64,000 bases of DNA, from assembly GCF_011927955.1 (NCBI RefSeq), contig NZ_JAATJN010000001.1, positions 3,844,001 through 3,908,000 of the forward strand. The letters are read 5' to 3'. Numbering within the stretch: position 1 is the stretch's first letter; each line of letters opens with the position of its first letter. The notes beneath the pieces are model-generated. The model was not told where the DNA came from. It was given only the letters and a program-made list of their open reading frames with translations, and did not search any database. This stretch comes from Brevibacterium marinum. GTDB taxonomy: Bacteria > Actinomycetota > Actinomycetes > Actinomycetales > Brevibacteriaceae. The translations under genes and the position numbers were made by a program. Positions 36,575 to 61,101 of this stretch are shown here, piece by piece.

Positions 36575-36659
36575 CGGAGGATAGGGGATTCGAACCCCTG
36601 AGGGCGTTAACCCAACCCGCGTTCCAGGCGAGCGCCATAGGCCACTAGGCGAATCCTCC
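36575..36659 (-). tRNA. tRNA-Ser (anticodon GGA)
   Basis: An 85-nt class II tRNA. The 7-bp acceptor stem is GGAGGAT with ATCCTCC plus discriminator G; the anticodon loop CTGGAAC carries GGA on a stem CTCGC/GCGGG; a long variable arm typical of Ser follows; the T-arm has GGTTCGAATCC. CCA is not encoded. Reads UCC and UCU. Confidence 0.95.
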
Positions 36660-36784: not shown

Positions 36785-36791
36785 GGCCGAT

Positions 36792-36880
36792 GGCTCCCCG
36801 TGCGGCGTCATCTTGTGAACTCCCCCAGGGCCGGAAGGCAGCAAGGGTAAGCGAGCTCTGGCGGGTGCACGGGGAGTCCT
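36792..36880 (+). ncRNA. ffs: Signal recognition particle RNA (4.5S-type)
   Basis: The short bacterial SRP RNA that scaffolds Ffh and targets membrane proteins. The conserved apical part GGGCCGGAAGGCAGCAAGGG is exact, containing the GGAA tetraloop and the asymmetric internal loop. The closing stem pairs CTCCCCGTGC (36794-36803) with GCACGGGGAG (36867-36876). In many actinobacteria ffs lies beside dnaX; here it is about 15 kb away, next to tRNA-Ser. Confidence 0.95.
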
Positions 36881-37020
36881 TCGTTTCTCAAGGTCACAAT
36901 TCCACAACTCCCCCTCCCCCATGTCAGCCCAGGTCAGAGCTCAGCTGAACGGCGAGAGACGAGCGTTTCTCCGCGATTTCGGCCCAATCTTTAATGCTTT
37001 CGTGATTTGGCTTCACTACC

Positions 37021-52163: not shown

Positions 52164-52832
52164 TCAGAATTCGAGGACTCCGCCGGGACCGCGCAGGCGG
52201 GCGTGGAGTCGATGATCGGTTCCGTCGACGGCCTGGGCATCCTCGGCGCCCAACACAGCGAGGACACGACGGGTCGCCGCGGCGTCCGGGGATTCGATGG
52301 AGAACTCTTCCAGCTCCACCGACGGCAGCCCCGCTTCGGCGGGGTGGCTCGACTCACCCCAGTCGATGAGGAAGGGCTGCGTGCCCTTGTCCGGCAACGG
52401 GGACCGAGACGTCAGGCGCCACTCCAGCAGCGTGCCGTCGGCGGTCTCCCGCGACATGTCGCGCACCTCGCCGAAGTCGACGCCTTCGGTGTTGGCTCCG
52501 GCGACCTTGGCGAGGAAGGCATGCGGATGAATCGCCCAGGTCTGCAGGGTCAGCCCCTCGGCCAGGTGCGCGTCGAGCGGCAGCGTGCCGTCGGCGGGGG
52601 CTTCCTGCTGCGGGTCGGGGCCGAGTATCTCGAGGTAGGTGTGGGCGCCCGCGGGCCAGCCCGCCGGGGCCAGACCGACGAGGCAGTTCGCCGTTCCGCG
52701 GCCCGGGTGTCGGCCGCCGGCGACGGCCCGGACCCCGGTGAGACGCTCAAATTCGGCGACCCCGGCTTCGAGCTCGGGCACCGTGATGATGAGGTGGTCA
52801 AGATTGGCGGGAATCGTGCTCAGATCGTCCAT
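52164..52832 (-). CDS. VOC-superfamily (glyoxalase-like) protein
   Basis: A 222-residue protein of the glyoxalase-like 3 type. It starts NLDHLIITVPELEAGVAEFERLTG, with a metal-type His, followed by GGRHPGRGTANCLVGL and the second module ending ARLRGPGGVLEF. The substrate is unknown. A decayed paralogue lies directly upstream on the same strand and overlaps its start, so the two arose by tandem duplication. Confidence 0.87.
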   Translation of the reverse strand: MDDLSTIPANLDHLIITVPELEAGVAEFERLTGVRAVAGGRHPGRGTANCLVGLAPAGWPAGAHTYLEILGPDPQQEAPADGTLPLDAHLAEGLTLQTWAIHPHAFLAKVAGANTEGVDFGEVRDMSRETADGTLLEWRLTSRSPLPDKGTQPFLIDWGESSHPAEAGLPSVELEEFSIESPDAAATRRVLAVLGAEDAQAVDGTDHRLHARLRGPGGVLEF

Positions 52833-53211
52833 GATCCACCGGGACCTTTCACTGTGGCGTGCAGGGATTCTGTGTCTCCTGCCTCAACCTCGATAGTAGC
52901 CCCCAAGGATCGCAGAACTCCAGACGTTGTGTCCACATCCGGCCTCGTGGCCCAGAACCGCTCGAGCCGGACAGTGGACATCGCCTGTCGCGCCGGGTGA
53001 GGAGAGTCCTGCCAATCGATGAGGAATGGCTGGACTCCACCCAGCACCAACGGCGTCCGACGCGTCAGTCGCCATTCGAGAAGTTCCCCAGCCCAGGATG
53101 TGCGCCCCCGGGAACGGGTCGCACAGCAAGCAAGGCACGAGATTGCTCAACACATTCAGCGAGATCGGGAACGGCAATGACGAGATGGTCGAAGCCCGAG
53201 GGCAGCAACAT
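52820..53211 (-). pseudogene. Decayed VOC paralogue with internal deletion and frameshift
   Basis: From an ATG at 53211 the frame reads GFDHLVIAVPDLAECVEQSR and VRPVPGGAHPGLGN, matching residues about 10-50 of the adjacent VOC gene, and then stops. In another frame the sequence resumes at once with LLEWRLTRRTPL and QPFLIDWQDSPHPARQ, matching that gene's residues about 140 onward to the ending VKGPGGSW at 52820. About 90 codons of the middle are missing at the junction (near 53080). The product cannot be functional. Confidence 0.85.
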
Positions 53212-53409
53212 GACTCAATGTTGAGCGACCGGATTGACTGAATGCATGCCGGTGAGATTAACTCGAAGCATGCAGACACACCCAGGGGTCCGAATGCTGT
53301 GGCGCCGACTCCACCTCGACCTCAATATCGTGACAAGCTCCAATTGTTGAGCTATATCAGCGTTTGACTCATCCGACCTCGGCTTCATCTGCACAAAGGA
53401 CCACATTCC

Positions 53410-55110
53410 ATGACGGACCTCCGTCCACCCGCCTCGGCGAACAGCTTTGCCCGGCGCGGATTCCTCAGCCTCGGACTGGGTCTGGGAACCTTCATCACTC
53501 TCAGCGCATGCACCCCCACCGACGATGCGCCCCTGAACGACAGCGGTGAACCCGTGCAGGGTGGGGTGCTCACCTATTTCGAACCTCAGACCTGGACGAT
53601 GCTCTACCCGCCCTCGGTCGGGTTCTACCCCAACGGCGGCATCATGAACAACATCTCCGCGCGGCTGCTGTGGCAGGACCCCGACAGCCTCGAGCTCCAC
53701 CCCTGGCTGGCTGCGACGCTGCCCGAGATCAACGACGACGCCACGCAGCACACGTTCACGATCCGCGACGGCGTCACCTACTCCGACGGCTCTGCGCTGA
53801 CAGCGGAGAACGTGGCGAAGAACTTCGACCTCTTCGGACGAGGCGACGAGGCCCGCACCCTTCCGGTCTCCGAACAGATCTCGAACTACGATCGCAGCGA
53901 GGTCCTCGCCGAGAACCGGGTCCGCTTCCACTTCAGCGCCCCGTCCCCCGGCTTCGCGCAGGCGACGTCGACGATGAACGCGGGCCTGCTCGCGAACTCG
54001 ACCCTCGACCTCGATGCGGAGGGCTTCGGCCCGGGAAGTGCCACCCGGATCCACACCTGCGGGCCGTTCCACGTCACCGAGGAGACGATCGGGACGAAGC
54101 TGGCCGTCCGGGCCCGCGAGGACTACGACTGGGCCCCACCGCACTTCACACACCAGGGCCGGGCCCACCTCGACGGCATCGACTACCTCGCCAACAACGA
54201 GTACTCGGTGCGCATCGGCGCCGTACTCTCCGGGCAGGCCGACGGCGTTCGCGACGTCGAGGCCCCCGACGAGGCCCGGGTGACCGAACAGGGTCTGCGC
54301 CTCTACGCAAAGGCCACGAACGGCATCAACAACAGCATCAACTTCCGGTTCCGCCACGAACTCCTCGACGACATCAAGGTCAGGCGGGCCATCATCGCCG
54401 CCGTGAACCGGCAGGAGATCGTCGACAAGCTCTTCACCCCCAACTACCCCTTGGCCACCGGACTGCTGGCCAAGGGAGCCATGGGCTATAAGGATCAGTC
54501 CGGATCCTGGGTCCACGATCCCGAAGAGGCCAACCGCCTCCTCGACGAGGCGGGCTGGGCCGAGCGCAACGATGCGGGCTACCGGACGAAGGACGGACAG
54601 ACCCTCGCATTGACCGTCAACATCGCCCTGCCGCAGCCGCGCTCGAACGAGGTCCAGACACTCATCCAGCAGCAGCTGCGCCACGTCGGCGTGCGTCTGT
54701 CCATCAACCCCGGCGACCAGTCCAAGCAGACCCTCGATGCCCTCGACCTCGATCGCGTGCAGATCTACCATTCGATGGTCGCCCGCGCGGACTTCGACAA
54801 TCTGCGATCGAACTATTCCTCGGTCAACCGTGACGTCTTCCTCAACGGCGTCGACCGCGAGGACGCCGCCGACGACAGCATCGACCCCGAGGTCGACCGG
54901 CTGCTCGACGAACTCGCCTCAGAACCCGAGACGAAGAGACGGCAGGCGGCCGCCGAGAAGGTCCAGGACTACCTCGTCGCAAACGCCTATGTGCTGCCGT
55001 TCTTCGAAGAGCCCCAGGTCTTCTCCTTCCGGCGCCGCGTCCACGGATTCGCGACCGAACCGGTGGGCCGTCCGGACTTCTACAGCACATGGTTGGCAGG
55101 TGGGCGATGA
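53410..55110 (+). CDS. Peptide-type ABC transporter binding lipoprotein
   Basis: A 566-residue family 5 solute-binding protein. The N-terminus has twin arginines (SFARRGFLSLGLGLG) and a lipobox LSAC, so Tat export and lipidation are likely. Family segments include PEINDDATQHTFTIRDGVTYSDGSALTAENV and KVRRAIIAAVNRQEIVD. It resembles the TIGR04028 (KPN_01854) group, which occurs with luciferase-like monooxygenases. It heads a six-gene operon; the stop overlaps the first permease start by four bases. The ligand is unknown and need not be a peptide. Confidence 0.9.
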   Translation: MTDLRPPASANSFARRGFLSLGLGLGTFITLSACTPTDDAPLNDSGEPVQGGVLTYFEPQTWTMLYPPSVGFYPNGGIMNNISARLLWQDPDSLELHPWLAATLPEINDDATQHTFTIRDGVTYSDGSALTAENVAKNFDLFGRGDEARTLPVSEQISNYDRSEVLAENRVRFHFSAPSPGFAQATSTMNAGLLANSTLDLDAEGFGPGSATRIHTCGPFHVTEETIGTKLAVRAREDYDWAPPHFTHQGRAHLDGIDYLANNEYSVRIGAVLSGQADGVRDVEAPDEARVTEQGLRLYAKATNGINNSINFRFRHELLDDIKVRRAIIAAVNRQEIVDKLFTPNYPLATGLLAKGAMGYKDQSGSWVHDPEEANRLLDEAGWAERNDAGYRTKDGQTLALTVNIALPQPRSNEVQTLIQQQLRHVGVRLSINPGDQSKQTLDALDLDRVQIYHSMVARADFDNLRSNYSSVNRDVFLNGVDREDAADDSIDPEVDRLLDELASEPETKRRQAAAEKVQDYLVANAYVLPFFEEPQVFSFRRRVHGFATEPVGRPDFYSTWLAGGR

Positions 55111-56180
55111 TCCTCGACATCCGATACCTCTTCCTGCGCCTGGGGCAGGCGGTTCTCGTCCTCCTGCTCGCGTTCACCGCGGCCTTCGTCCTCCTCAGTC
55201 TCGTTCCCGGCGACGGGGTCACAGCCAGGTTCGCCGATCCCGCACTGGGGCTCTCGGCCGATCAGATCGCCGAGATCCGCACCCAGACCGGTGCCGACGA
55301 ATCCTGGATCACCCGCTACCTCCTCACCCTCACGGGCTTCCTCACCGGTGACTTCGGCTTCTCCGTCCAGACCGGCGCAGCCGTATCGACGATCATCGCC
55401 GCGGCGCTGCCCTCGACGGCGGAGCTCGCGGTCTCGGGGTTCGTCTCCGCCCTGGTCCTGGCCGTTCTCATCGCTGTGCTGGCGACCTACGGCCCTTATA
55501 GCTGGCTGCGGAAGCTCCTCGACTCGGTGCCCAGCCTCTTCATCTCGATTCCCGTGTTCTGGTTGGGGATCCTGCTCATCCAGATCTTCTCCTTCCAGTT
55601 CGGTCTCGTCTCCGTCGTCTCCCCCAGCCCCGCCGAGGCGCTCGTCCTCCCGACCCTGACCGTGGCGGTGCCGTTGTCGGCCCCGATCGCGCAGGTCCTC
55701 ATCCGTTCCATCACCGACGTCAGGGCCTCGGGGTTCGTCAAGGTCACCTCGGCGAAGGGCGCGTCCGAACTGTGGATCCTCGTCCATGCCGTGGCCCGCA
55801 ATGCGATCCTGCCCGGGCTGACGATCATCGGTCTGGTCTTCGGCGAGCTCGTCGCAGGCGCTGTGGTCACCGAGACAGTGTTCGGTCGCAACGGCATCGG
55901 CCAGGTCACCGCCCAGGCCGTGACCCACCGCGACAATCCGATCCTGCTGGCCGTCGTCGTCATCGCGACGCTGGCCTACGTGGTCATCAACCTCGTCGTC
56001 GACCTCCTCTACCCCGTCATCGACGTGCGCCTGCGCTCTCAACCCCGGGTCTCTTCGGTGGGCGGAAAGGCCGCCGACGAACCCACTCGCCGGGCACTGT
56101 CGACGACGGCGGCCAGCGTCGGGGTCGACCTCGACTGGGACACGTCGGGAGCGTCCACGACGAAAGGCCGGGACTCATGA
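55107..56180 (+). CDS. ABC transporter permease, DppB type
   Basis: A 357-residue inner-membrane permease with six hydrophobic segments. The opening LFLRLGQAVLVLLLAFTAAF and VFGRNGIGQVTAQAVTHRDNP (coupling region) are typical of DppB/OppB. The C-terminal 50 residues form a hydrophilic tail rich in Ser and Thr that most relatives lack. ATGA overlaps at both ends. Confidence 0.92.
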   Translation: MILDIRYLFLRLGQAVLVLLLAFTAAFVLLSLVPGDGVTARFADPALGLSADQIAEIRTQTGADESWITRYLLTLTGFLTGDFGFSVQTGAAVSTIIAAALPSTAELAVSGFVSALVLAVLIAVLATYGPYSWLRKLLDSVPSLFISIPVFWLGILLIQIFSFQFGLVSVVSPSPAEALVLPTLTVAVPLSAPIAQVLIRSITDVRASGFVKVTSAKGASELWILVHAVARNAILPGLTIIGLVFGELVAGAVVTETVFGRNGIGQVTAQAVTHRDNPILLAVVVIATLAYVVINLVVDLLYPVIDVRLRSQPRVSSVGGKAADEPTRRALSTTAASVGVDLDWDTSGASTTKGRDS

Positions 56181-57046
56181 GCCTCATCGACTCCTTCGCC
56201 CGCACCCCGGCCATCGGTGCTCCACGCTCAGCATCGAGGCGACGTGGCCGCGCGAGCATCGGCCCCGCCACGATCGTCTCCGCCCTCGTCCTGCTCATCG
56301 CCGTGGCCTGGGCGCTCTTCCCCAGCCTGTTCACCCACCACGACCCCAACGACGGCGGCACCACTCCGGCGCTGTTGGCTCCGGGCCTCGACCATTGGTT
56401 CGGCACCGACCAGACCGGGCGTGATGCCTTCACCCGCGTCGTCTACGGCGCTTCCCAGTCACTGCTCGCCGCACTCGTGGCCGTCGGCGTCGGGCTCGTC
56501 GTGGGCACGACGATCGGGCTCATCGCAGGCACCCGCCGCGGCTGGATCGACGATGTGCTCATGCGCTTGGTCGACGTGCTGCTGTCGATCCCCGCGATCC
56601 TGCTCAGCCTCTCAATCGTCATCGTCTTGGGCTTCGGCACCATCAACGCCGCCATCGCCGTCGGAGTCACCGCCATCGCCCAATTCGCACGTCTCGCGAG
56701 GTCAGAGGCCGTGCGCATCAATACGAGTGACTTCGTGGCGGCGGCCTACGGTTCGGGCGGCACCTTCTTCTCCGTCCTGTTCCGCCACATCCTGCCCAAC
56801 TCGGTCTCGCCCGTGCTGTCCCTGGCCGTCCTCCAGATCGGGTCCGCGATCCTCCAGATCTCGACCTTGGGCTTCCTGGGCTACGGCACTCCCCCGCCGA
56901 CGCCGGAATGGGGCCTCATCATCGCCGAGGGCCGCAACTACGTGGCCACCGCCTGGTGGCTGACCGTCCTGCCCGGCTTCGTCGTCATGGCCATCGTCCT
57001 GGCCACCCACCAGATCGGCAACACCCTGCGAAAGGCGACATCATGA
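56177..57046 (+). CDS. ABC transporter permease, DppC type
   Basis: A 289-residue permease. The sequence GLDHWFGTDQTGRDAFTRVVYGASQSL is the DppC/OppC signature near residue 75, and SDFVAAAYGSGGTFFSVLFRHILPN is the cytoplasmic coupling loop. Five to six membrane segments. It overlaps its neighbours by four bases each side. Confidence 0.93.
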   Translation: MSLIDSFARTPAIGAPRSASRRRGRASIGPATIVSALVLLIAVAWALFPSLFTHHDPNDGGTTPALLAPGLDHWFGTDQTGRDAFTRVVYGASQSLLAALVAVGVGLVVGTTIGLIAGTRRGWIDDVLMRLVDVLLSIPAILLSLSIVIVLGFGTINAAIAVGVTAIAQFARLARSEAVRINTSDFVAAAYGSGGTFFSVLFRHILPNSVSPVLSLAVLQIGSAILQISTLGFLGYGTPPPTPEWGLIIAEGRNYVATAWWLTVLPGFVVMAIVLATHQIGNTLRKATS

Positions 57047-58719
57047 CCGAGTCCGCAGCCCTGCTGTCCGTTGAGGATCTCAGTGTCGCCTACTCCCAGT
57101 CCTCGGCCCCGGCCGTCGACGGCGTCTCCTTCGCCGTGCGTGCCGGGTCGATGACCGCGGTCGTCGGCGAATCCGGGTCAGGCAAGTCGACGACCGCGAA
57201 TGCGGTCATCGGTCTGCTCCCCGAATCCGCGCAGCTCACGGATGGGCACATCCGCCTCGGCGAGGTCGATCTCGGTTCCTTGGGGGCCGGTGCCTGGCGA
57301 GGGATCCGCGGCAGCCGGATCGGCTATGTTCCCCAGGACCCCGGCAGCTCCCTCAACCCGCTGCAGACCATCGGGAGATCCGTCGCCGAGGCGCTGCGGA
57401 TCCACCGTCGCGCCGACCGGAAGTCCGCCCGTGCCCAGGTCATCGAGCTGCTGACCAAGGTCGGCATCGATCGTCCGCAGTTGCGCGCCGACCAGTTCCC
57501 ACACGAGCTCTCCGGCGGCATGCGTCAGCGTGTGCTCATCGCCTCCGCGATCGCACTGCAGCCGCGACTGCTCATCGCCGATGAGCCGACCTCGGCGCTC
57601 GACGTGACCGTGCAGAAGCAGGTCCTCGACCTCCTCGACGGGCTGCGGGACGAGACCGGGATGGGTGTCCTCTTCATCACCCACGATCTCGCCGTCGCCG
57701 GTGAACGCGCCGATGAGGTCGTCGTCATGGAGTCGGGACGCGTCGTCGAGGCCGGGCCGGCGGCTCAGATCTTCTCACGCCCGGCCACCGGCTACACCTC
57801 GCGCCTGCTCGCCGATGCTCCTGCCCTGAAGACGAAGACCCACCGTCGATCGACGGCCACCGACGCACTCGCCGAAGCGAAGAGTCCCTTCGTCTCCGTC
57901 GAAGCGCTGACCCAGGTCTACGCCCGCAGCGACGACCAGGTCAGCGGCGTCGAGGACGTGTCGCTGCATGTCGAACGCGGTACCACGCACGGCGTCGTCG
58001 GCGAATCCGGGTCCGGCAAGACCACGATGGGCAAGGCCCTCGCCGGATTCCTCACTCCACAGTCCGGCCACATTCGCGTCGGCGACTTCGACACCGCGGG
58101 ACCTGTACGAGGTCGTGCGGCCAGGGCCCGCCTGCGAGGCTTCCGTCGCACGGTCCAGCTGGTGCACCAGAACCCGTATTCGGCGCTGGATCCCAAGCAT
58201 TCGATCCGGCAGATCCTGACCGAACCCCTGCGCAACTTCCGAATCGGGACCCGCGCTTCGCGCCCCTCCCTTGTCGCCGAGGCCCTTGACCGTGTGGCAC
58301 TGTCGAGCGACTTTCTCGACCGGCGGCCGGCCGAGCTCTCCGGCGGTCAGCTGCAGCGTGTGGCGATCGCCCGGGCGCTCATCGCGGGCCCGGAGCTCGT
58401 CGTCTTCGATGAAGCGGTCTCTGCCCTCGACGTCACCGTACAGGCCCAGATACTGACCCTCCTCGACGATCTCCAGACGGACCTCGGACTGACATACGTC
58501 TTCATCTCCCACGATCTCGCTGTCGTGCGCCAGATCGCTGATACTGTATCGGTGATGTCGCAGGGACACTTAATCGAACACGGGGTGACGGAGGATCTCT
58601 TCGCCCGCCCACGAACCGACTGCACACGCACCCTCCTCGACGCGATCCCCCGTCCCGTACTGCTCCACGGTGCCGGAATCGACGAGACCCCGACATTGCT
58701 CGCAGCAGCAGAAGGATGA
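57043..58719 (+). CDS. Fused double ABC ATPase (DppD-DppF in one chain)
   Basis: A 558-residue protein with two complete nucleotide-binding domains that are separate subunits in most peptide transporters. First domain: Walker A GESGSGKST, signature LSGGMRQR, Walker B LLIADEPTSALD. Second domain: Walker A GESGSGKTT, signature LSGGQLQR, Walker B LVVFDEAVSALD (Ala in place of the usual Pro). The linker is at about residues 265-290. The start overlaps the permease stop, and the stop overlaps the next start. Confidence 0.94.
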   Translation: MTESAALLSVEDLSVAYSQSSAPAVDGVSFAVRAGSMTAVVGESGSGKSTTANAVIGLLPESAQLTDGHIRLGEVDLGSLGAGAWRGIRGSRIGYVPQDPGSSLNPLQTIGRSVAEALRIHRRADRKSARAQVIELLTKVGIDRPQLRADQFPHELSGGMRQRVLIASAIALQPRLLIADEPTSALDVTVQKQVLDLLDGLRDETGMGVLFITHDLAVAGERADEVVVMESGRVVEAGPAAQIFSRPATGYTSRLLADAPALKTKTHRRSTATDALAEAKSPFVSVEALTQVYARSDDQVSGVEDVSLHVERGTTHGVVGESGSGKTTMGKALAGFLTPQSGHIRVGDFDTAGPVRGRAARARLRGFRRTVQLVHQNPYSALDPKHSIRQILTEPLRNFRIGTRASRPSLVAEALDRVALSSDFLDRRPAELSGGQLQRVAIARALIAGPELVVFDEAVSALDVTVQAQILTLLDDLQTDLGLTYVFISHDLAVVRQIADTVSVMSQGHLIEHGVTEDLFARPRTDCTRTLLDAIPRPVLLHGAGIDETPTLLAAAEG

Positions 58720-59756
58720 GACGAACTCGCATGACGAACAGCACCACCGGCCCCAGGGTCGGCTTCTTCACCCGCCTGCTCGAGGACGCACCGGCCGACC
58801 AGCGCTACCGGTTCGCGCTCGAGCAGATCCAGGCGGCCGAGACCCACGGCTTCGACTCCGCCTGGGTCGCCCAGCACCACTTCTCCGCGTCCGAGGGCGG
58901 GCTGCCCTCCCCGCTCGTTTTCCTGTCCCATGCGGCCGCGCAGACGACCCGGATCCGCCTGGGCACCGCGATCATCACCCTGCCCATGGAAAACGGCGTG
59001 CGCGTGGCCGAAGACATCGCGGTCACCGATGTACTCTCCGACGGACGCCTGGAGATCGGACTCGGGTCGGGCGGAAACCCGAAGTCCTTCCCTGCGTTCG
59101 GCACCAGCTTCGATGAGCGCCGCGAGGTGTTTTCGGACAACCTCGGCGCTTTGAAGACCCTGCTGGCCGGTGAGGCGCTGGACACGGGGCATTCTCTCTA
59201 CCCGGAACCGTCCGGACTCGTCGATCGCCTCTGGCAGGCCACCTTCTCCTCCGGCGGCGCGGGAGCCGCGGGTGCCGCCGGAGACGGTCTCATGCTCTCG
59301 CGCACCCAGCCCCGCCGCCAGGACGCCCCCGGAACTCCCCTCGACGACGTGCAGCTGCCGGTCATCGACACCTACCTGTCGAACCTGCCGACCGGCGTCG
59401 AACCGCGTATCCTCGCATCGCGCACCGCCGTCGTCGCCGACGCCGAGGACCTGCCGGCGCTGCGTGCACTGACGGAGCCGGCACTGCGGACCGAGGCCGA
59501 CCGCCTCGTCGGCTACGACACCTCGGGACTGAGCCTTGACGAGCTGCTCGTCGCCACCGACACCTTCCTCGGCACCCCCGAACAGGTCATCGAACGCCTC
59601 TCAGGCGATCGTGTGCTCTCGCAGGCCACCGACGTCAGCTTCCAGGTACACTCGGTGCCGGCGACGAACGAGACGACGCTGCGCTCCATCGAACTCCTCG
59701 CCACCGAGGTGGCACCGGCCCTGGGGCTGACACTGACGACGGAACAGGCGGCCTGA
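58716..59756 (+). CDS. Luciferase-like flavin-dependent monooxygenase (KPN_01858-like)
   Basis: A 346-residue LLM-family enzyme, predicted to use reduced FMN and oxygen. Landmarks: VGFFTRLLED at the start, DSAWVAQHHFSASEGGLPSPL, RIRLGTAIITLPMENGVRVAEDIAVTD, and GLGSGGNPKSFPAFG. This matches the TIGR04027 group linked to ABC importers. The ATG at 58716 overlaps the ATPase stop as ATGA; a second ATG at 58731 (MTNSTTG) is an equally likely start. The substrate is presumably what the transporter imports. Confidence 0.9.
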   Translation: MRRTRMTNSTTGPRVGFFTRLLEDAPADQRYRFALEQIQAAETHGFDSAWVAQHHFSASEGGLPSPLVFLSHAAAQTTRIRLGTAIITLPMENGVRVAEDIAVTDVLSDGRLEIGLGSGGNPKSFPAFGTSFDERREVFSDNLGALKTLLAGEALDTGHSLYPEPSGLVDRLWQATFSSGGAGAAGAAGDGLMLSRTQPRRQDAPGTPLDDVQLPVIDTYLSNLPTGVEPRILASRTAVVADAEDLPALRALTEPALRTEADRLVGYDTSGLSLDELLVATDTFLGTPEQVIERLSGDRVLSQATDVSFQVHSVPATNETTLRSIELLATEVAPALGLTLTTEQAA

Positions 59757-59757
59757 C

Positions 59758-61101
59758 ATGACCGACATCATCAACACGCTCGCGGGAATCGCCGCACAGG
59801 ACCCACTCGACGGACTGCGCGATCACCGCGCGCAGGCCAAGGAGAACGCGCAGCTCAGCTTCGAAGCCCTCCTCGAACCCGCAGACGTCGGCGATTTCTC
59901 CCACCGGGACCGCTACGCCGTCGCCGCCTTCACCGCCGGCCTGTTGGGTTCGGCCGCGTCCGAGGAGTTCTACCGCGACCTCCTCCGCGACGAGGACGAG
60001 GTCGCCTCCTGGGCGATCGCCGAACTCCTCGACGAAGCTCTCCTCGAACTCAACTCCGGCTCGGACGTCCGCGGGCCCTACGGATCCTTCGAATCCCCCG
60101 TGCTGGCAGCGGAGAACGTTCCAGGGCCGTGGTTGGGCGTAGAGACGAAGTCCAACGAAGTCCTGGGCCCGCAGCTGGCCGCCGGGCTCGAATTCGCCCA
60201 CCTCTTGGTCCTGCACCCACGCGATTCGCGGCCCGAACATCTCGCGCTGCTGCTGGACGCCGGGTGGGAAGAGGACTCGATCGTCACGCTCGCGCAGCTC
60301 GTGTCGTTCCTCAACTTCCAGATCCGCATCAGCACGGGCTTGACCGCACTGTCGCACGCACCGGCTGCCGCGGTGCCTCCGGTCGCGGACGAGGCACAGG
60401 AATCGGACGACGGTGACGGTGCGGCCACCTCGGCGAAGGAATCCGCCCCCTCCTGCAAGGGCAGTGAGGCCCTGGCCCGGGTGGGCGAGCGCGTCAGCCC
60501 CTACCCCGATCTCAAACGGCCCGAACACTTCCAGCAGTCCGGCCTGGGATGGGTGCCGTGGATCGCCCCCATCGCCGAGGCGGACCTGTCCGATGTCCAG
60601 CGCGATGCCCTCATCGACGCCGGGCGGGCGAGGAACCCCTACTTCCGCCTGCTGGCCAGGGATCCGGCGGCGCTGCGGGCACGGACGCTGACCGATCTCG
60701 ACATCTTCTTCAACACCACCGACGGCGTGGGGCGAGCCGAACGCGAGCTCGCGGCCACCGTGGCCTCACGACTCAACGGGTGCCTGTTCTGCGCCTCGAT
60801 CCACTCGGACCGGGCGACCGAGGAGTCGGGCCGCCGGGACCTCGTGCAGACGCTGCTTGACGAAGGGATCGGCGTTCCCTCGAGCCTCGGCGATCCTGCG
60901 TGGGATGCTGTCGTCGACGCCTCGGCGGCACTCACGCGCACGCCTCAGGCGTTCGGACCTGAGCATGTGAGTGCGCTGCGCGAAGCCGGTCTCGAGGACG
61001 GGGACATCATCGACGTGCTGAACTGTGCTGCCTTCTTCAACTGGGCCAACCGCCTCATGCTCTCCCTGGGCGAACCGGAGGTGCTGGCGCCGGGGAAGTG
61101 A
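59758..61101 (+). CDS. Fused CMD-domain / alkylhydroperoxidase-like protein (Avi_7170 + Avi_7169 type)
   Basis: A 447-residue protein with two AhpD-like halves. The N-terminal half (to about residue 200, RDRYAVAAFTAGLLGS, HLALLLDAGWEEDSIVTLAQL, VSFLNFQIRISTGL) lacks the redox cysteines. After a polar linker, the C-terminal half (KRPEHFQQSGLGWVPWI onward) has CLFCASIHSDRAT, the CxxC-x3-H site of alkylhydroperoxidase-like proteins, and ends with a second ALREAGLEDGDIIDVLNCAAFFNWANRL. The two types are separate genes in other clusters as I recall. Starts one base after the monooxygenase stop. It probably detoxifies or further converts the monooxygenase product. Confidence 0.87.
   Translation: MTDIINTLAGIAAQDPLDGLRDHRAQAKENAQLSFEALLEPADVGDFSHRDRYAVAAFTAGLLGSAASEEFYRDLLRDEDEVASWAIAELLDEALLELNSGSDVRGPYGSFESPVLAAENVPGPWLGVETKSNEVLGPQLAAGLEFAHLLVLHPRDSRPEHLALLLDAGWEEDSIVTLAQLVSFLNFQIRISTGLTALSHAPAAAVPPVADEAQESDDGDGAATSAKESAPSCKGSEALARVGERVSPYPDLKRPEHFQQSGLGWVPWIAPIAEADLSDVQRDALIDAGRARNPYFRLLARDPAALRARTLTDLDIFFNTTDGVGRAERELAATVASRLNGCLFCASIHSDRATEESGRRDLVQTLLDEGIGVPSSLGDPAWDAVVDASAALTRTPQAFGPEHVSALREAGLEDGDIIDVLNCAAFFNWANRLMLSLGEPEVLAPGK

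Follow-up and report, generated by a model that had tools for sequence, protein, structure and literature searches.

The protein families TIGR04027, TIGR04028, TIGR04029 and TIGR04030 are listed as hypothetical equivalogs in NCBIfam. A related gene set is described in Corynebacterium glutamicum, where one study marks cg2678, cg2677, cg2675 and cg2674 as McbR genes; they are said to encode components of a peptide-type importer, including a duplicated ATPase, together with a carboxymuconolactone decarboxylase (CMD) (PMC2807442). The CysR study also lists cg2678-74 in the McbR regulon, with lower transcription in its mutant (PMC2580772), and cg2678 is reported as one of the 30 genes most strongly induced by starvation, together with cys and ssu genes (PMC6892785). 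Here, these systems are compared with a six-gene operon at positions 53410..61101 (+) of a 64,000-nucleotide stretch of the Brevibacterium marinum genome (contig NZ_JAATJN010000001.1, positions 3,844,001 to 3,908,000; hereafter the window), in which all four families are found together. The operon probably has a role in sulfur limitation, scavenging sulfur from an organic compound (probability about 0.7). This reading is supported from three sides: McbR-type boxes in Corynebacterium-type loci, an 11-mer in Brevibacterium, and gene neighbours in proteobacteria. The McbR link of cg2678-74 is already in print; the sulfur link for the gene set is new. Literature searches found no publication tying the four families by name to sulfur, neither TIGR04028 nor TIGR04030 was in any paper found, and among TIGR04027, TIGR04029, KPN_01854, KPN_01858, Avi_7169 and Avi_7170, KPN_01858 was the sole match.

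The six genes are joined by four 4-base overlaps and one 1-base gap, as described in an earlier reading of the sequence alone (the sequence-only reading), and the four families named there all score above their curated cut-offs in an NCBIfam profile scan. The first gene (53410..55110, +) encodes a Tat-type lipoprotein that is a family 5 substrate-binding protein of TIGR04028 (755.2 bits, cut-off 468.5; SBP_bac_5, 201.5 bits). It is under the cut-offs for the dipeptide and glutathione importer proteins DppA (38.4 bits, cut-off 1005) and GsiB (52.1 bits, cut-off 594). Next come two ABC permeases of the Opp/Nik type with BPD_transp_1 matches, the first at 55107..56180 (+; top NCBIfam model Opp2B, 222.1 bits, under the cut-off of 350) and the second at 56177..57046 (+; Opp2C, 238.4 bits, under the cut-off of 300), and a fused double ABC ATPase with two ABC_tran stretches (57043..58719, +). 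The last two genes encode a luciferase-like flavin mononucleotide (FMN) monooxygenase of TIGR04027 (58716..59756, +; 457.6 bits, cut-off 412.9) and a fusion of a CMD domain (TIGR04029, 189 bits, cut-off 100.75) with an alkylhydroperoxidase domain (TIGR04030, 280 bits, cut-off 233.15; 59758..61101, +). The resemblance to cg2678-cg2674 lies in the binding protein, permease, duplicated ATPase and carboxymuconolactone decarboxylase/AhpD, as the C. glutamicum genes are described in print; the differences are that the C. glutamicum control genome has no TIGR04027 match above cut-off and that the window operon has no McbR-type box upstream.

The Klebsiella (KPN_01854-01858) and Agrobacterium vitis (Avi_7169/7170) sets match the window operon in functions and order, although the Klebsiella record lacks an annotation for the second permease. 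A. vitis has CMD and AhpD as two proteins, whereas Klebsiella and the window have them fused, and the VOC neighbour differs. An alignment of 13 monooxygenases, used as the query, returned at least 588 relatives among the collected genomes, of which the best 80 loci were kept. Linkage was counted from monooxygenase matches and says nothing about genomes lacking the monooxygenase gene. An AhpD-type gene lies directly downstream of the monooxygenase in 79/80 loci, and all four importer genes lie directly upstream, in complete order, in 73/80. The co-occurrence stated in the sequence-only reading is borne out, and the survey for absent linkage that it had named as a possible refutation, run here from the monooxygenase side, returned linkage instead. 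Other arrangements are a monooxygenase alone in Kocuria (L079), a locus cut by the contig end (L111), monooxygenase, CMD and AhpD genes with the importer not adjoining in Reyranella (L121), Bartonella (L127 and L138) and Bradyrhizobium (L133), and a different gene order in Sinirhodobacter (L139). The Bartonella genome of L127 (G330) carries a TIGR04028 binding-protein gene at a separate site, with a VOC gene about 1.1 kb away. The monooxygenase is above cut-off in 7 of 296 sampled genomes of the window's class, the window's own included, so the gene set is sporadic in that class. Members of the four families are found in soil, plant and clinical isolates.

The first line of support comes from the family of C. 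glutamicum. The C. glutamicum control genome is above the TIGR04028 cut-off, with no TIGR04027 match above cut-off. Among 401 sampled genomes of its family, 25 are above the TIGR04028 cut-off, 23 of them in one group (g116). Regions from nineteen of these 23 genomes were taken, and a twentieth region, L199, which is from another genus and is without McbR-type box, CMD and AhpD, was kept apart. The importer is present in all of the Corynebacterium-type loci (19/19) and the CMD and AhpD parts in 17/19, with CMD and AhpD forming one open reading frame (ORF) in 13 non-redundant loci. A scan that began 450 bp before the estimated start of the binding-protein gene and ended 30 bp within it found a perfect TAGAC-N6-GTCTA box in 13/19 loci, and a box with at most one mismatch in 16/19. 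All 13 perfect boxes in the 320,601 bp of Corynebacterium-type loci lie upstream of the binding-protein gene, whereas 93 other loci (1,891,525 bp) have 0 perfect boxes, and none of their 10 one-mismatch sites precedes a binding-protein gene. In 18/19 Corynebacterium-type loci this intergenic region is common with a divergent FAD-NAD(P)-binding protein gene (L180:10854-12794, +, for one of about 640 aa, with a PF13454 but no NCBIfam match), and the protein is PF13454 in all three examples tested. It is absent from 114 other sequences searched, some of them overlapping. The pattern suggests an exchange of flavoenzymes, with the FAD protein in place of TIGR04027.

The second line is found in Brevibacterium itself. 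The intergenic region between the VOC and binding-protein genes has conserved blocks in 20 Brevibacterium sequences, window included. The 11-mer TGTTGAGCAAT (53142..53152, -), common with the region upstream of a sulfate-assimilation operon, is present in 20/20 Brevibacterium upstream regions. Ahead of the binding-protein gene the motif has a promoter-proximal copy, TGTTGAGCTAT (53345..53355, +), which is conserved as ATTGTTGA[AG]C in 20/20 aligned upstream regions. At the sulfate-assimilation operon, TGTTGAGCAAT occurs exactly, 46-55 bp before a sulfite-reductase-like ORF, in 18/19 genomes, and with one mismatch in the remaining genome. This ORF is followed by cysH (245.3 bits, cut-off 154), an ORF that in our reading is probably CysD-like, a GTP_EFTU protein and a tetrapyrrole methylase. 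TGTTRAGCNAT, drawn from the conserved blocks, has 8 sites in the window's own 4.22-Mb genome, compared with 1 for a reversed control. Two are those found here and one is 55 bp before this nitrite/sulfite-reductase-family ORF; the other five have no evident sulfur gene among the ORF starts, to which the inspection was confined. A 12-mer search with one mismatch allowed gave 17 matches, compared with 2 in the control, and one match is 237 bp before a flavin-reductase gene (L249:3190-3696, +, followed by a radical SAM protein). This upstream 12-mer is kept with at most one mismatch in 11/18 genomes and at most two in the other 7. As luciferase-like enzymes require reduced flavin, the flavin reductase is a candidate partner of the monooxygenase, and may supply FMNH2 to the TIGR04027 enzyme. 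In two other Brevibacterium genomes (G340 and G341), the distance from the flavin reductase to an NtaA/DmoA monooxygenase is about 1.7 kb.

The third line comes from gene neighbours elsewhere, as seen in 16 annotated regions of a plasmid collection, chosen by hand and including four from Pantoea, and in genome-wide counts. SfnB (594.7 bits) and NtaA/DmoA monooxygenases are beside the module in Rhizobium L129, a sulfonate importer and NtaA/DmoA are near it in Rhizobium NXC24, and tauA and a sulfonate-type monooxygenase (223 bits, under its cut-off) are near it in A. vitis S4. In Variovorax L141, a CMD gene is found in a locus with CysB, EpsC, a rhodanese and a cysteine-desulfurase encapsulin (family 2A). 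In Pantoea and A. vitis VAR03-1 the module adjoins sets of GNAT, M20 and monooxygenase genes that also include an amino-acid importer. Such sets resemble the S-alkylcysteine/2-succinocysteine clusters of B. subtilis (scm, ytn and yha), which are reported to combine a monooxygenase with salvage enzymes for S-modified cysteines (PMC12757645). The window operon differs from these clusters in having a family 5 importer and a CMD/AhpD fusion; no GNAT (acetyltransferase) or M20 gene was found by family scans among its six genes, and the joint presence of acetyltransferase, monooxygenase and deacetylase that marks an S-alkylcysteine salvage cluster is not seen in them. Whole-genome searches were made in 47 genomes of the 80-locus set, and the counts are for 46 of these, Kocuria being set aside because it has no TIGR04028 or TIGR04029 match. 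In at least 5 of the 46, an NtaA/DmoA gene lies no more than 10 kb from the module, compared with 0.78 expected, a modest excess; the genomes are related and not independent, and Poisson values for this and other neighbour counts are a guide only. Two details of annotation may be added. The Variovorax gene (L141:11830-12735) has a CMD domain and a partial AhpD-like match, with no such importer annotated there, and the M20 gene of Pantoea dispersa (L143:12852-13229) is annotated as a 378-bp dimerization-domain piece, the full gene being present in three other Pantoea regions.

Several points weigh against the sulfur reading or limit its reach. The luciferase-like enzyme is found in 0/19 Corynebacterium-type loci. 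Thus, the McbR link speaks for the importer and CMD/AhpD and not for this enzyme, and the pairing of enzyme and importer seen by the sequence-only reading holds for the 73 monooxygenase-anchored loci but not as a constant part of the gene set. The equation of g116 with Corynebacterium, and of the control-genome match with cg2678-74, is drawn from annotation and gene set, and TAGAC-N6-GTCTA is taken here as the McbR consensus. No McbR-type box is found upstream of the window operon (the best site has 3 mismatches) or in the upstream regions of 87 loci outside Corynebacterium, where the best sites have 2 mismatches in 8 regions and more in the rest, and the box was rejected as the switch in Brevibacterium. 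A sulfur riboswitch was rejected as well, as Rfam scans found none in 14 loci (tRNA, TPP and guanidine-II matches only) or in the window (tRNA and signal recognition particle (SRP) RNA only). The sulfite-reductase-like protein behind the Brevibacterium 11-mer is under all curated cut-offs (best 343.5 bits, cut-off 594). Since TGTTGAGCAAT falls within the 5'-terminal part of the second VOC gene, coding constraint may account for part of its conservation at the module. The NtaA/DmoA neighbour count is low, and the annotation lists no organosulfur genes in 7 of the 16 annotated regions (Roseateles, Klebsiella, Rhizobium BT04, Paracoccus, Erwinia persicina, E. rhapontici and S. americanum); the Paracoccus region has sarcosine-oxidase and Rieske genes instead, and that of E. 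rhapontici ends after the module. Finally, K. pneumoniae KPN_01858 and TauC are both reported to be higher under iron limitation (PMC7194016), and the rise of KPN_01858 would agree with a sulfur response but equally with a metal-related one.

A Glyoxalase_3 VOC gene is a recurrent partner of the module that was missed in the sequence-only reading. In the window, the VOC protein (PF13468, 118.3 bits) is encoded divergently from the operon at 52164..52832 (-). Next to it is what remains of a second, tandem VOC gene (52823..53211, -), which has decayed to two pieces with the middle missing; these correspond to residues 1-43 (72% identity) and 124-217 (84% identity) of the intact second VOC protein of L060. 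A VOC relative is divergent from the operon in 19/19 other Brevibacterium loci fetched, and two tandem copies are present in three other Brevibacterium genomes searched whole. PF13468 proteins also adjoin the module in Pantoea, Erwinia, Rhizobium, Neorhizobium, Winslowiella, Sinirhodobacter, Microbacterium and Delftia. Counting matches of at least 50 bits only, PF13468 genes are within 5 kb of the module in 14/46 genomes, compared with 0.19 expected from the number of such genes.

The 447-residue fusion has CxxC-x3-H only in its second half (NGCLFCASIH), in agreement with the sequence-only reading. The residues expected of an active AhpD, C101, C104, H108 and E89, are invariant across 16 separate TIGR04030-type relatives, while the CMD half keeps two histidines and one arginine in 20 separate relatives, with no invariant cysteine. 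Structure prediction gives the fusion an AhpD fold doubled within one chain, as in Sestrins, and only one of the two halves is expected to be active. The likeness to human Sestrin2 consists in the two AhpD-like domains per chain, predicted for the window fusion; identity is 11-12%, and no sign of a common function was found. The active domain of Sestrin2 is reported to be N-terminal with a single cysteine (PMC4674687), whereas that of the fusion is C-terminal with two. Because its active-site motif sits in the C-terminal half, the fusion is Sestrin-like in architecture but not a Sestrin.

Among solved structures, the window monooxygenase is nearest in sequence to Klebsiella PCX02514 (PDB 8K74, 355 bits), which is reported as a poly(acrylic acid) monooxygenase with NADPH-dependent chain shortening that is weaker in mutants (PMC11354265). 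Five residues were mutated in that protein. In our reading of the 13-sequence monooxygenase alignment, R10, S186 and R187 are invariant and R125 is kept in 11 sequences and replaced by K in 2, while the window protein has D in place of H253. The pocket of PCX02514 is described as positively charged (PMC11354265), and this, together with the residue conservation, makes an anionic substrate likely. The enzyme has the luciferase-like family in common with organosulfur monooxygenases of the SsuD/MsuD/SfnG/NtaA type, and NtaA/DmoA genes sometimes adjoin the module, but it is far under the cut-off of the SfnG model (30.0 bits, cut-off 382.95). A second branch of TIGR04027-like monooxygenases is present in other actinobacteria (L052-L058; 220-283 bits, under cut-off), with no CMD/AhpD gene found nearby.

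In the mechanism proposed here, the Opp/Nik-type ABC importer would take up an anionic organosulfur compound during sulfur limitation, and the TIGR04027 monooxygenase would oxidise it, most simply at or beside the sulfur, so that usable sulfur is released. FMNH2 would come from elsewhere, perhaps from the flavin reductase with the similar upstream motif. The AhpD half, beside the oxidation step, could be a thiol-based reductase of a peroxide or of an oxidised-sulfur by-product, and the VOC protein might act on a further intermediate; the roles given to the CMD and VOC proteins are guesses. The analysis itself covers gene content, conservation, linkage, the upstream motif in common, the McbR-type boxes of relatives and the predicted fold of the fusion; induction by sulfur limitation in B. 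marinum, the kind of substrate, the order of the reactions and the parts played by CMD, AhpD and VOC are inferred. Uptake followed by oxidation, the core of the sequence-only reading, still appears to be the best account of the importer and monooxygenase. Of the substrates it suggested, a sulfonate or thioether is favoured by regulation and neighbourhood, while no support was found for a nitrogen heterocycle; a nitrogen-heterocycle or general xenobiotic substrate was dropped, with nothing found in the neighbourhood or regulation. A thioether or S-substituted cysteine or peptide is a tentative choice of substrate, at somewhat less than even odds. A bolder version, which is rather doubtful as a whole, would see a sulfur-scavenging module in which a family 5 importer and CMD/AhpD, fused or as a pair, form the unchanging core and the flavoenzyme can be exchanged (TIGR04027 in most of the loci examined, PF13454 in Corynebacterium), providing a new route of C-S cleavage on an S-substituted cysteine or peptide-type compound, with CMD/AhpD and VOC as catalytic partners and not stress proteins, and with the inactive half of the Sestrin-like fusion binding substrate or product. 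If the sulfur reading is true, four hypothetical-equivalog families gain a role in sulfur nutrition, an AhpD-type protein is tied to organosulfur breakdown, a bacterial protein with the Sestrin two-domain layout becomes available for comparison, and two unrelated flavoenzymes are able to fill one slot. A direct test is possible in C. glutamicum, for which a matching operon, a regulator and a deletion strain (lacking cg2663-cg2686) are in print.

Two other accounts, both unlikely, deserve weighing. Degradation of EDTA and NTA involves breakdown of the imported chelate by a monooxygenase, and by analogy a NikA-like binding protein could import an aminopolycarboxylate, opine or metallophore-type chelator for the window enzyme to break. 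After TIGR04028, the top models of the binding protein are indeed NikA models, Opp4A, CntA and GsiB, all far under their cut-offs, and proteins of solved structure that resemble it in sequence include NikA, AgaA and binders of agrocinopine. The double ATPase is above the cut-offs of NikD (407.1 bits, cut-off 318.7), NikE (385.2, cut-off 332.55) and PRK11308 (445.8, cut-off 408), these whole-protein scores being sums over two stretches. The conserved arginines and serine of the monooxygenase, the positive pocket reported for its relative and the reported rise of KPN_01858 under iron limitation would suit a chelate too. However, the binding protein is under the NikA cut-off (102.7 bits, cut-off 393), the permeases are also under cut-off, the upstream elements of two actinobacterial lineages point to sulfur, and in the iron study TauC is named alongside KPN_01858 (PMC7194016). 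There is a similarly small chance that the system is one of plain uptake of sulfur-containing peptides, in which CMD/AhpD would serve in general defence against peroxides and the monooxygenase would have no more than an incidental part. The importer is of the peptide type, and the Corynebacterium-type loci hold importer and CMD/AhpD without the luciferase-like enzyme. Moreover, cg2674 is cited as an AhpD reduced through Lpd/SucB/NADH (PMC11266056), and Sestrin2, with the same double fold, is reported to reduce alkylhydroperoxides (PMC4674687). Against this account, the monooxygenase has an identical place in the gene order in 73/80 monooxygenase-anchored loci, and another flavoprotein is divergent from the importer in 18/19 Corynebacterium-type loci.

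That the system serves to degrade poly(acrylic acid) or a polymer like it is suggested by the chain shortening reported for PCX02514 as the nearest solved relative, but is very improbable. A polymer of this size is, to our knowledge, not a normal substrate of ABC importers, and one of the residues mutated in PCX02514, H253, is replaced in the window protein. The reported activity is also very slow, with a kcat of 0.00214 per second, 14-28 uM enzyme used for 5 h, and FMN or FMNH2 ineffective (PMC11354265). Given this turnover and the ineffective flavin, cleavage of poly(acrylic acid) is not taken as the natural reaction, and the polymer was judged unlikely as a physiological substrate. Elsewhere in the window, a bacterial small SRP RNA is found at 36789-36884 (+) and a tRNA match at 36575-36659 (-).

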